Under the pieces are notes generated by a model. That model made no database searches and was not told the origin of the DNA. It saw nothing but the letters and a program-made list of their open reading frames with translations. Positions 26,707 through 38,329 of a DNA stretch of 43,689 nucleotides are shown here, one piece after another. Position 1 is the stretch's first letter, and each line of letters begins with the position of its first letter. Position numbers and translations under genes: made by a program. This DNA is from Selenomonadaceae bacterium (GTDB taxonomy: Bacteria > Bacillota > Negativicutes > Selenomonadales > Selenomonadaceae). The DNA lies in contig JAFXNB010000046.1 of the NCBI GenBank assembly GCA_017529935.1, forward strand, positions 1 to 43,689, read 5' to 3'.

Positions 26707-26735
26707 GTATAAGAGACAGTTTCTTTACGCAAAAT

Positions 26736-28152
26736 TTATACGATGCCAGTCACGGCAAAAATCGCCAAGCAAATAAACGCAACCGAAGTTTTTAGCAACG
26801 TCAGGACAAAAACGTCGTAATAAGATTCCTTGTGACTTAGACCGCAGACCGCCATTAGCGTTATCAGCGCGCCCGAATGTGGCGGGGTGTCGATACACTC
26901 CGAGGCGAGCGCAACGATTCTGTGCAAAACTTCCGGATTCATGCCGATTTGATTTGCCATAGTTAGCCACTGTTCGCCCAACATGCCCAGCGCGATTGTT
27001 TCGCCCGCCCGACGCTGAACCCGTGATTCCGCACATGATTAGCGTCGTGATAACCGCCGAACCTAAAGGACCGTCGCCGATAGAAATTCCAAGCAGGGCT
27101 TCTTTAATCATCTCGAAGGCGGGAACTGCCGCGACCACGCAACCGAACGCGTAGCACGAGGCGACGTTCAAAATTGCCGCCATGGAGCCGACCGCGCCGG
27201 TATTAATCGGGTGAACGACGCCGCCTTTCGACGCCAAACATTTCCTGCCGATAATCGCCGCCGCTATACAGCTCAAAATTAACGCCGCGTTAATCGACCA
27301 AATCGCTTGCACTTTGCCGACGCCGCCCGCCAACAAGCTCAAGTTCAGACCTGCCAAACTGTCAAGACTGCTCTGATCCCAATGATAAGCCCAGCTCCAA
27401 TTAAACGGATTGCTGATAAATAAGTTCAAAACGATGACCATGACGAGCGGAATTGCGGAAAGTTTCCAATCGGGCAACTCTTCTTTGGAGACTTCAGGCT
27501 CGTTGATTAAATTCGTTCCGTAGCCTTCGCCCGCCGCTTGAAGTTTTTTCGCGCGATAATTAACCCAACCCCACGCCATGGCGAAATAAAGAACTGCGCC
27601 GATAAGTCCAAGTCCGATGCCCGCCCAAGTCGTCGTGCCGAAATAAGCCGTCGGGATAATGTTTTGGATTTGCGGAGTGCCGGGGATTGCGACCATGCTG
27701 TAAGTAAAAATGCCCATCCACAGCAAGCCCGGCAAAAGTTTTTTGGGATAGTTGGCTTGCTTGAATAAAATCGCCGCGAAAGGATACATGACGAACGCCA
27801 CGACGAACACGCTCAAGCCGCCGTAGGTGAGGACGCCGCAACCGATTAGAATTGCCAAGATTGCTTTTTCCTTGCCGAGCGTTTGAACGATTTTATTTGC
27901 GACCGAAGCGGCAAGCCCGCCTTCTTCCATGATTTTGGCGAAAATCGCGCCCAGCAAAAACACGGGATAATAAGTTTTGACGTACTCGGCCGCCTTTGTC
28001 ATGTAAATTTCGCTGAAAACGGGCATTGGGTCATGCCCGCTCCCGATACTCGCCACGACTGCGAACAGCGGCGCGATAAATATTATAGAGTAGCCGCGAT
28101 ACGCAAAGAATATCAGCAACACTAGGCTTAAAATAATCATCGTCAGTCCCAA
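26736..28152 (-). pseudogene. GntP-family permease with a C-terminal frameshift
   Basis: This is a multi-span permease with about 12-14 hydrophobic segments and GntP-like phrases: IIFIAPLFAVVASIGSG near the N-terminus, TYGGLSVFVVAFVMYPF, IPGTPQIQNIIPT and MCGITGSASGG. Just after SASGG the frame breaks at a GGGCGGGC sequence (about 27000-27012). The original frame runs on into a basic nonsense tail, while the next frame resumes with the expected LGMLGEQWLTMANQIGMNP and CIDTPPHSGALITLMAVCGLSH and stops at 26736. One extra base explains it. A TTG at 28152 with GAGGTGG, or ATG 28140, is the likely start. It may be a true inactivation or an assembly error. The family imports gluconate-type sugar acids. 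Confidence 0.8.
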
Positions 28153-28204
28153 ATTGTCCACCTCATTCCAAAAAATAAACCGCAACGCTTGAAACGTCGC
28201 GGCA

Positions 28205-28320: not shown

Positions 28321-29949
28321 CTAAAAATTTTTCGAGACGCAAATCATGTAGGAATCGTCCTCGCCCTTGCCCAAAAGCACAATCGTAAAGCCGCGCTGTT
28401 CCAGAAATTTAATCTGGTCGACAGTCGCGGTGACGATAAAAAATTTGCTGTTGCGCTCGAACCAAAGCAAAGTTTTCATTGGAATATCCTGTTCGTTGGG
28501 GCGGAGTTGCGCCGAGTGCCAGCCGCGAAAAGTATTTAGCATTAATACGACGTCAATTTTATTTGCCAAATCGCCTTCGACCAAATGTTGAAGCCAGCCG
28601 CCGTAAAGTTTCACGCCGCGTTCGTGCGCCTGCTTGTGTGTGGAAAATTTTCCCTTGAAACAATCTTGAACGATTACTTCGGACAGCATGAAATGTTCTT
28701 TAATTTTGGTGCCGACAATGGCGTCGCCGCCGCAAATATCAGCCAGCACGAACGGATAAGAAATTTTGCCGCCGCGAATGAGTTTGCCGAGGCAATCGAT
28801 AATTAAACTTGAACGCGAGCGCGGGTCGTTAGTGTCGTAATCGGAAACTCCGACGCGCTGAAGAATTTCCCTTTCGCGTGAATCGGGCGGCGGAGGCGTG
28901 TTCGGCCAGAGATAAAAATCTTTAATGTCGACCGTCGCGGCTTTTTCTTCCAGCTTGCCAAAGAAATAATTTGCGGAAATTCTTTTGAGAATCACTTCGC
29001 AAAAACCCTTTACGACTGCCTCCGAAGCAAAAATTTCTTCCGAGACGAACGGCAAAATTTGCCCGCCGAACTTGAAAATTTCTCCGTTCCAAAAATCGAT
29101 GGGCGTGGTGCCGATTGTGTAAACGTCCGCGCCAGCAATCGCCAACACGTCGCGCCCCATGAACGGCGGAACGTAAATATGCGAGCCGAAATCATTTTCC
29201 GTGGTGAAGACGCAATCGGCGGCGTGTTTAATCAAAATCGCCTGCTCGTGAGCCGAAAAACTTTTCAGCACGCGGCAATTTTTTCCGCCGGCAATTTCGG
29301 AGCGACTGTCCCAAGCTCTGCCCGTGTTGAAATTCAAAACAACGACGGGAATTTTTTCGGCGAGTTTTTCAACGAGCAATTCAGTAGGGACGACGTGCTT
29401 TGAGCGGATAACAATGTCGCGCTTGCGCCCTTGAACTAAAACATACGGCTCTGACAAATTTATCTGCAAACGGTTTTCCAAATCGCTTTTAAGCTCCGCA
29501 GAATCGTAATCGATTTTGGCGTAAAGATTTTGCTTGTGACCTTCGCCACCGTAGATATTAAAAAATTTTTCCCACATGCCGAAGTGAACGCCGTTTATAA
29601 GATTTAAGTCCGAGCTGAAAATAAATTCCGGTCGCTCAATATTAAACGGTCTCAATTTTTCCGTAATGTAAGCTTGAACGGAAGCTTTAATCGCGTCTTG
29701 CGAATCTTTTCTGTAAAGCGTGGCGATGTCGTAGGCAAAGTAACCGTCGGCGCGGCTGGCTTTATAGAACGGGTCGGCGGAAATGTCGATAAAAATATCG
29801 GCGTAAGGATACCAGATATCCATGCCCGTTCTGCCGCCGATTATAATTATATCTTCAGGCGAGCAAGTCGTTTTGAATTTGCGAACAAGCCCTTGCCAGT
29901 TGAAAAGTTCGTAGCCGAATTCGCCCAAAAAAACAAATACGTAATTCAT
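28321..29949 (-). CDS. Two-domain protein: glycosyltransferase-like N-terminus and methyltransferase-like C-terminus
   Basis: I do not recognise this 542-residue protein as a named family. Residues 1-330 look like a GT-B-type glycosyltransferase: FLGEFGYELFNWQGLVRKF at the very start, a central LSEPYVLVQGRKRD strand, ARAWDSRSEIAGG-like sugar-nucleotide region, AILIKHAADCVFTTENDFGSHIYVPPFMG and a TTPIDFWN end. Residues 390-542 look like a Rossmann-type methyltransferase (FVLADICGGDAIVGTKIKEHF, KIDVVLMLNTFRGWHS, and a final FFIVTA strand). There is no signal peptide, so it is cytosolic. It follows a DegT aminotransferase by 21 nt and is probably co-transcribed with it. A role in building a methylated amino-sugar glycan is inferred. 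Confidence 0.55.
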   Translation of the reverse strand: MNYVFVFLGEFGYELFNWQGLVRKFKTTCSPEDIIIIGGRTGMDIWYPYADIFIDISADPFYKASRADGYFAYDIATLYRKDSQDAIKASVQAYITEKLRPFNIERPEFIFSSDLNLINGVHFGMWEKFFNIYGGEGHKQNLYAKIDYDSAELKSDLENRLQINLSEPYVLVQGRKRDIVIRSKHVVPTELLVEKLAEKIPVVVLNFNTGRAWDSRSEIAGGKNCRVLKSFSAHEQAILIKHAADCVFTTENDFGSHIYVPPFMGRDVLAIAGADVYTIGTTPIDFWNGEIFKFGGQILPFVSEEIFASEAVVKGFCEVILKRISANYFFGKLEEKAATVDIKDFYLWPNTPPPPDSREREILQRVGVSDYDTNDPRSRSSLIIDCLGKLIRGGKISYPFVLADICGGDAIVGTKIKEHFMLSEVIVQDCFKGKFSTHKQAHERGVKLYGGWLQHLVEGDLANKIDVVLMLNTFRGWHSAQLRPNEQDIPMKTLLWFERNSKFFIVTATVDQIKFLEQRGFTIVLLGKGEDDSYMICVSKNF

Positions 29950-29970: not shown

Positions 29971-31088
29971 TTATTTGCCGGCAGATAAATTCAACTTCCC
30001 ATCCGCCAAAGATTGATGTATCGGCAAGCAAAGCGTACAAAGCGCGGCGGCTTCGGCGTTCGGCAGGTGTTCGAATTTTTGCCCGTACAAATTCACCCAA
30101 TGCAACGGATAATATCTGAACGTCGTGTAAATATTTTTTCCGCGCAAATATGACGCCAAGCGGTCGCGGTCTTCGGGATTTTTTGTTTGAACGTGGTACA
30201 TGTAGTAGGAGGATTTTTGATAATCTTTGAGCGGCGGCGGAAGTTTCAACCAATCGACATTCGCCAGCAACGAATCATAAAGCTCGGCGACGTGTTTGCG
30301 CTTGGCAATAAACTTTGGCAATTTTTCCAGCTGAACGAGTCCAATCGCCGAGGAAATGTCATTCATGATTGAGCGGCGTCCGAAGGTATCGATTTGAAAT
30401 TCCCACCACTTCGAGTCGACGGAATTTGTAAAGCCGCTCTGCGAAACCAAGCCCAGATAAATATTTTGCCGCAATTTTTTAAACTTGTCGGCGTCTTTAA
30501 CGTAAATCATGCCACCATCGCCGCAGACGAGAATTTTCATTGCGTCGAAAGACCACGTGCCCGCCTGCCCGAAAGTGCCGCACGCCTTGCCCTTGTAAAA
30601 AGAAGAGACAGCAGTCGCGCTGTCTTCAATCAGAGTGATATTTTTCGCCGCGCACAGTTCTACAATCTCGTCAAGTTCGCAGGGGACGCCGCCGAAATGC
30701 AAAATACAAACGGCTTTCGTTGCGGGCGAAATTTTTTCTTCGATGGCCTTCGCGGTCGCATTCAGCGTGAGTTTGTCCACGTCGCAAAAAACAACACGCG
30801 CTCCCCTGTCGACGACGGCATTGGCCGCCCCAACAAAAGAACACGTCGGCATAATAACTTCGTCGCTTGGCTCAACGAAACATTTCATGACTTGGAAAAG
30901 ACCTTCGGTGCAAGAATTGACGCTAAGACAATACCCCCCCCATTTATCGAATTTTCGCGGAGATGTTCAAGGAATTTTTCCTCGAATAATTTTGTCTTTG
31001 CGCCCTTGCCAATCCAATTCGACGCAAAAACTTTTTCGACGGCGAGCAATTCTTCTTTTCCTAAGTTCGGCTGAAATACATTTATCAT
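29971..31088 (-). pseudogene. DegT/DnrJ/EryC1-type sugar aminotransferase, out of frame at a G8 tract (candidate phase-off gene)
   Basis: From ATG 31088 one frame reads MINVFQPNLGKEELLAVEKV and FASNWIGKGAKTKLFEEKFL, the DegT N-terminus, and reaches eight G at 30934-30941 (C on the plus strand). It then runs off into nonsense. The next frame carries the rest: YCLSVNSCTEGLFQVMKCFV, PSDEVIMPTCSFVGAANAVV, LIEDSATAVSSFYKGKACG, the PLP-lysine segment SFDAMKILVCGDGG, and a C-terminus ending near 29971. Nine or six G would restore one 370-residue enzyme. Such enzymes aminate keto-sugar nucleotides for surface glycans. It lies 47 nt after a helicase gene. The break at a homopolymer suggests phase variation; assembly error is the alternative. 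Confidence 0.85.
30934..30941 (-). repeat. Homopolymeric G8 tract inside the DegT aminotransferase gene
   Basis: There are eight G in the coding strand, flanked AAAT before and TATT after. The frame before and after the tract differs by one base. A very similar tract with the same flanks, but G9, lies at 38305. Confidence 0.9.
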
Positions 31089-31135
31089 ATCATCACACTC
31101 CCACTTGAAACGTTATGACACGGATTATTCGCTTT

Positions 31136-37229: not shown

Positions 37230-38329
37230 TTATTTTTTTGCGGCTTTGAGACTTTTGATTTCGTTTTCAAGTTGAGAGATGCGTTGATGAGCACCAATCA
37301 GTTGCAGGCGATAAGAATTCACCATGCTGAAAAGGAGCGTCGTCAAAGCTTTGTGATTGCCGTCGGAAAATTCTTTTTGCAAAAAAGCGTCGAGAGCGGG
37401 CGCGGGCACTTGCATATAAATTTCCATCACGCCGTTCAACAGTTCATTGATAAACATGTCAAACAAAATATATTTCAAATCGGGGCGGCGCGAAAAAAAT
37501 TCTCGGTCGCTCAAAAATTCTTCAATATATCTTATGACCGTTTTTAACGCCTTGACTTTTCGACTCAAAAATTCGGGCAATGTTTTTTTCGCGTGCGTGA
37601 TAGAACCTTCATTTTGGCGATAATAATAAATAACGTTGGGAAGCAGAACGTATCTTTTCGCGCTGCAAAGTTCGCAAATGGTGAACAACATATCTTCGGC
37701 GGTGATGTCGCAGAATTGAATTTCATTGTTCACTATAAAGTCACGGCGGACAAGCTGATTACACATGTTCCAAATGAGTTTTCTTTGTCCGAAAAATTTA
37801 ATTCGTTCCTCAAAATTGTTTTCCCAAACGAGCGGCTCCGTTATTAAAACTTTTTCGCCCGTCAAATAGTTCCAAGGCTTCAAATGCTTTCTAAATTCCG
37901 AGTGATACGAAAATTCATCGGGAACCACATAAAATTTTTCGCAATGAACAACGTCCGCGTCAAATTTTTTTGCTTGAGCGTAAAGCTCTTCAAGGGCGGT
38001 CGGCGTGACGAAGTCGTCGCTGTCCATGTTGAAAATATATTCGCCGCGAGAAAATTCAATGCCCTTGTTGCGCGGGAAGCCTGCGCTACCCGTGTTCTTT
38101 TTCATGTGCGCAAGCTTGAGCCGCCCACCGAATTTTTCCGCATAACTTTGGAGAATCGCGGGGCTTGAGTCGGTTGAGCAATCGTCCACGACAATCACTT
38201 CAAAATTTTTTAGCGTCTGGGCAAGAAGGCTGTCTAGGCAATCTCGAACATATTTTTCCACGTTGTACATGGGAATGATGACCGAAACCGCAGGATATGC
38301 AAATGGGGGGGGGTATTATTGAACGGCAT
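37230..38329 (-). pseudogene. GT2 glycosyltransferase, out of frame at a C9 tract (candidate phase-off gene)
   Basis: A strong AAAGGAG lies 8 nt before ATG 38329, which opens a frame MPFNNTPPP and reaches nine C (G on the plus strand, 38305-38313). After the tract this frame is nonsense. The true GT2 N-terminus, FAYPAVSVIIPMYNVEKYVR, is in another frame, which meets a TAA a few codons upstream and so has no start of its own before the internal ATG 38270. Ten or seven C would fuse both parts into one 366-residue enzyme. The rest is intact: VIVVDDCSTDSSPAIL, YIFNMDSDDFVTPTALEEL and a C-terminal coiled tail ending SLKAAKK. It belongs to the surface-glycan cluster. Confidence 0.85.
38305..38313 (-). 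repeat. Homopolymeric C9 tract (coding strand) near the start of a GT2 gene
   Basis: There are nine C in the coding strand, nine codons' distance from the start codon. The plus strand reads AAAT, G9, TATT, the same flanks as the tract in the DegT gene. The frame is wrong by one base at the present length. Confidence 0.9.

Follow-up and report, generated by a model that had tools for sequence, protein, structure and literature searches.

Hypermutable G/C runs within open reading frames make up the phasome of Campylobacter, where they are mostly 9–10 long and number 18–39 per genome in C. jejuni and 5–81 across strains (PMC6321876). In the gut commensal Bifidobacterium breve, G-tract switches lie in two pilus clusters; an intragenic tract parts a short start ORF from a long body, and slippage, which was measured, restores the frame (PMC9187656). 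Genes with homopolymeric tracts are also described from Helicobacter canadensis (PMC2823697), which belongs to another phylum than the rumen Selenomonadaceae. The poly-G phase-variable sets that we found in the literature come mostly from mucosal pathogens. Our literature search for Selenomonas and Negativicutes found no paper on such switches, which is weak evidence because subscription papers were mostly outside its coverage.

The locus that we describe here is a DegT aminotransferase gene of a rumen Selenomonadaceae bacterium, divided at a run of eight G. The kind of switch is already known; what is new is that a large rumen Selenomonadaceae genus joins the bacteria with big poly-G phase-variable sets. 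As in Campylobacter (PMC6321876), the G/C runs lie inside ORFs and there are tens of them per genome, but the host is unrelated and the bases flanking the tracts are species-specific. As in B. breve (PMC9187656), the tract separates a short start from a long body, but there two pilus clusters are switched and slippage was measured, whereas here we infer slippage and find the tracts in glycan genes genome-wide.

The DegT gene and its G8 tract

The sequence belongs to Selenomonadaceae bacterium GCA_017529935.1, an uncultured rumen MAG of 2.49 Mb in 196 contigs that is 82.8% complete. By the window we mean the whole stretch analysed, positions 1–43,689 of contig JAFXNB010000046.1. A protein search gave one orthologue of the gene, L054, in the roe-deer rumen Selenomonadaceae MAG RGIG4976 (74–75% identical). 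The relevant features, all on the minus strand, are:

31098–31102, minus strand: GGGAG, a likely ribosome-binding site 9 nt ahead of the ATG (read from the sequence)
30942–31088, minus strand: N-terminal 49 codons of DegT, ATG at 31088; the alignment with TlmJ starts at TlmJ residue 6
30934–30941, minus strand: G8 tract (C8 on the plus strand), the proposed slippage switch, read directly; the homologous tract of L054 is G11
30885–31088, minus strand: truncated 67-aa product of the present (OFF) length state, from translation
29971–30933, minus strand: C-terminal 320 codons of DegT, PF01041, TlmJ-like, open in another frame than the N-terminal part
30535–30537, minus strand: presumed PLP lysine codon, from the alignment of WSFDAMK with WSFDAMK of TlmJ
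29998–30000, minus strand: second one-base frameshift, in GGG, relative to L054; alters the 3' end of DegT
28321–29949, minus strand: 542-aa partner gene downstream of DegT, found behind DegT in L054 as well

The original prediction was that one DegT enzyme is split at the G8 tract. This holds, with eight C on the plus strand between 49 N-terminal codons and 320 codons in another frame, and the coordinates and residue counts given for it were right. The tract lies in the DegT ORF and is above the cut-off that we used for G/C homopolymers in ORFs or promoters (at least 7, as in PMC6321876). From its ATG the leader reads MINVFQPNLG...ENSIN, 49 aa, and with G8 it continues as GGG-IVLASILAPKVFSKS-stop (run-on GGGIVLASILAPKVFSKS), ending at 30885. 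Nine or six G had been proposed to restore the frame, and lengths 9 and 6 are indeed the in-frame classes. Tract length thus sets whether the product is truncated or full-length, with about the last 10 residues staying altered by the second frameshift.

The two parts read together as one member of the DegT family. The C part alone matches PF01041 at 3e-70 in a profile search, with no internal stop in its 320 codons, and the read-through protein, with X at the tract, scores 274.9 bits against a curated cut-off of 19.8 and covers profile positions 3–351 of 360. The read-through can also be aligned with TlmJ (5uid; DegT/DnrJ/EryC1/StrS family) over its whole length, with an E value of 6e-120, compared to 8e-103 for the C part alone. 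This alignment takes in the N-terminal 49 residues as well as the lysine of WSFDAMK, the presumed PLP lysine that had been predicted. Unlike our gene, TlmJ has no tract in the alignment and is four residues shorter at the tract site, where a variable loop directly precedes the conserved cofactor-binding motif. None of the NCBIfam equivalogs (PseC, WecE, ArnB, DesI and others) scored above its cut-off; the best was NF008687 with 201.5 bits against 375, and the rest were far below. The aminotransferase probably supplies a surface glycan with an amino sugar. Rescue of the OFF gene from an internal ATG at 30888 is unlikely, because the product would be without VNSCTEGLFQV, the segment that aligns to a conserved motif in the N-terminal part of TlmJ.

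It had also been claimed that everything else in the gene is intact, and this we had to correct. The C-terminus of L054 is SLSDDEVEKICDLIIKYKE, while that of the window gene is SLADGKLNLSAGK, with GEVEFICRQIISFKG readable in the neighbouring frame. Comparing these three ends led us to a second one-base frameshift, in GGG at 29998–30000, which alters about the last 10 residues; about 14 residues at the end are replaced by 8–9 others. It fits decay or error as well as switching.

The 542-aa partner had no match in Pfam, NCBIfam or PDB; by eye, its C-terminal part resembles a methyltransferase. Elsewhere in the window, at 26725–28185 on the minus strand, there is a transporter ORF with a weak GntP match whose last ~90 residues look out-of-frame, possibly a frameshift without a long G run.

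DegT is present in two of the 66 congeneric genomes, this one and that of L054. The L054 copy is also out of frame at its G11 and is otherwise open, so both known copies are OFF in their assemblies. Between the two genes dN is 0.21 for the C part and 0.22 for the N part, and synonymous differences per site (pS) are 0.81 and 0.66, near saturation. The low dN beside nearly saturated synonymous sites indicates that both halves, one on each side of the tract, are kept by purifying selection. A DNA search for DegT in 40 relatives returned only chance pieces of 25–35 nt, and in a 398-genome sample of the phylum there was no further close DegT homologue and no tract-free DegT orthologue for comparison. 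One scan of viral contigs for other tract lengths found nothing.

Long G runs in the genome and the genus

Exact G-run counts in the 2.49-Mb genome were 48 for G6, 7 for G7, 4 for G8, 8 for G9, 7 for G10, 1 for G11 and 2 for G12. The lengths are bimodal. If the drop between G6 and G7 is extrapolated as a geometric tail, ~1.2 runs of at least G8 are expected. The genome has 22 (G8–G12), more than chance would give; in the window alone, G7 matches are in mild excess only. Another species of the genus, G024, shows the same gap: its loci have 19 runs of G5 and 21 of at least G8, with G6 and G7 absent, and no run in its control loci exceeds G6. Every one of the 60 congeneric genomes searched has runs of at least G8, between 2 and 90 of them. 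Such runs are not peculiar to the genus, an idea that we rejected, as most members of the class have some, usually fewer. We also rejected the idea that the tracts stem from lost mismatch repair, with MutS_V found in 41 of 41 genomes; since MutS is present throughout the genus, general mismatch-repair loss is not the driver of the variation.

Two of the 22 tracts are within 25 nt of a contig end, where ~0.09 would be expected. This excess fits mixed tract lengths breaking the assembly, and poor poly-G coverage would do likewise. Contig ends at or near long G runs can be seen at G000:C100:1-8, G000:C193:13-22 and L054:3508-3519.

Tract lengths differ among relatives. For five orthologous tracts shared by the sibling species G059 and this genome, with flanks 92, 94, 95, 87 and 97% identical, the lengths are 9/10, 10/8, 10/12, 7/8 and 9/9, so that four of the five differ. 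Three tandem DUF1919-type paralogues in another species, G017, have tracts of G10, G8 and G13 within 100-nt flanks that are 90–97% identical and have no indels. Over all comparable pairs, tract length differs in 22 and agrees in 13.

The window has a second switch of this kind, in a glycosyltransferase gene:

38314–38329, minus strand: glycosyltransferase leader MPFNN up to the tract, ATG at 38329; the starts of homologues L121 and L122 fall on the matching codon
38305–38313, minus strand: C9 on the coding strand near the glycosyltransferase start, second switch, OFF
37230–38270, minus strand: glycosyltransferase family 2 body, out of frame with the leader; PF00535, 5.5e-33, match from profile position 6

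Many GT2 homologues in the genus have C8, C9 or C10 at one N-terminal site. In L121 (76% identical) a C9 leaves the gene in frame, or ON; L122 (74%) lacks a tract, and its frame is open from the matching start codon. With ON, OFF and tract-free versions, leader tracts are thus gained or lost while the enzyme stays unchanged.

We read gene content from the stretches around tracts and controls. The genes with tracts in three species are rich in those for glycosyltransferases (families 2, 8, 9 and 92), capsule synthesis proteins, acyltransferases of the hexapeptide type and of family 3, methyltransferases and DUF1919 proteins, and they also include genes for epimerases and RTX-repeat proteins. 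The 20 control genes of G024 are mostly housekeeping genes (elongation factor, tRNA synthetase, sigma factor). Eight tracts lie between TTGACA and a -10 box, with a spacing of 16–20: L045:3978, L053:3963(-), L068:2044, L077:6076, L080:1906(-), L084:1559(-), L091:2029 and L095:2057, where minus-strand positions are counted on the reverse complement. At least one of them is upstream of an RTX-repeat protein. These promoter-spacer tracts are likely a form of transcriptional phase variation and would vary promoter strength.

Two other loci are worth recording. At L051:3696-4785, where two response-regulator genes stand in tandem, the first has a G11 at its end and may encode a phase-variable regulator. 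An Asp/Glu racemase at L037:3404-4180 has an in-frame G10, and a metabolic or cell-wall enzyme may thus be phase variable too.

Probable slippage switching and its alternatives

We consider it likely that the DegT tract is a contingency locus with ON/OFF switching by slippage, and DegT very probably belongs to a large group of genes of the genus that are switched in this way. Polymerase slippage on the poly-G during replication would add or remove single G. Two of the three length classes would part the 49-codon start from the 320-codon body (OFF, as with G8 here) and the third would join them (ON). Only ON cells would produce the precursor, an amino sugar destined for a surface glycan, and the population would stay mixed under pressure from phage, protozoal grazing or the host. 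Slippage as the cause, reversibility in the population, the glycan product and the benefit are what we infer; for slippage, reversibility and benefit we draw on the work on Campylobacter (PMC6321876) and Bifidobacterium (PMC9187656). Phase variation is well supported as a reading of the sequences, and the earlier proposal of a reversible switch gains from the relatives. The tract is conserved and variable in length among them (G8 here and G11 in L054, along with the other orthologous tracts and the paralogous ones), both halves of the gene are under purifying selection, the glycosyltransferase of the window has ON, OFF and tract-free versions, and there is a genus-wide set of such tracts in glycan genes and promoters. 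With such switching, cells of one population of these rumen bacteria would differ in their surface glycans. This matters for phage sensitivity, for protozoal grazing and for strain-level metagenomics, and the last would misread such switched genes as pseudogenes.

DegT could instead be a decaying pseudogene in which the tract once worked as a switch and the copy is now permanently off. The second frameshift, which is outside any long repeat, and the rarity of the gene, with both known copies OFF, are in line with this. However, no more than about 10 residues at the C-terminus are touched by that frameshift, and all the rest can be aligned with TlmJ. The 320 codons have no internal stop, and dN stays low in both halves of the gene, where synonymous sites are nearly saturated. 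We find decay quite unlikely. An assembly or sequencing artefact, with the true tract in frame and the 3' frameshift perhaps an error too, would be easiest to believe in a fragmented and incomplete metagenome assembly, where a homopolymer consensus can be off by one and where tracts are found at contig ends more often than expected. An off-by-one error would alter the called state and not the existence of the tract, though, and the tract recurs at the same site in the independent assembly of L054, with long G runs in every congeneric genome searched. This makes an artefact very unlikely.

Homopolymer runs of such length can cause RNA polymerase to slip, so the G8 gene might be expressed with no change in the DNA, by transcriptional slippage or by ribosomal frameshifting on the G run. 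This would leave unexplained why tract lengths differ between orthologues and between paralogues and why L122 is in frame with no tract at all, and frameshifting would be meaningless for the tracts that lie in promoter spacers. We regard expression by this route as extremely unlikely and keep to replication slippage as the preferred reading for DegT.

Species-specific bases next to the tracts

The bases next to the tracts differ between species. For 1265 tracts in 60 genomes, the heterogeneity chi-square is 334 for T before the tract and 390 for T after it, with 59 degrees of freedom; each tract was counted as independent, and paralogues make the counts somewhat too high. In G064, T follows 50 of 50 tracts and precedes none. 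In G024 (L057-L076), T precedes 23 of 23 tracts, compared to 26% of its shorter G runs, and it does so whether the G or the C strand codes and in unrelated genes. Codon context is therefore unlikely to be the whole cause of the bias in G024, and neither codon context nor gene duplication is a full explanation.

A species-specific motif is not predicted by simple random slippage. Candidate causes are recombination that spreads the tract, slippage that depends on context, and a dedicated factor, which by recognising the flank could seed, protect or mutate the tract. That a sequence-specific process, differing between species, makes or keeps the poly-G tracts of the genus is a tentative idea that we hold to be rather unlikely. 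Species-specific flanks, if confirmed, raise the question of how contingency tracts arise.

The flank consensus is GT-Gn-YGTA in G024 and CAGT-Gn in G066 (L172-L185). In G053 (L132-L151), which was sampled for T before the tract, it is AT-Gn-TGA/TTG. The flanks are AT-rich in G000, G017 and G059.
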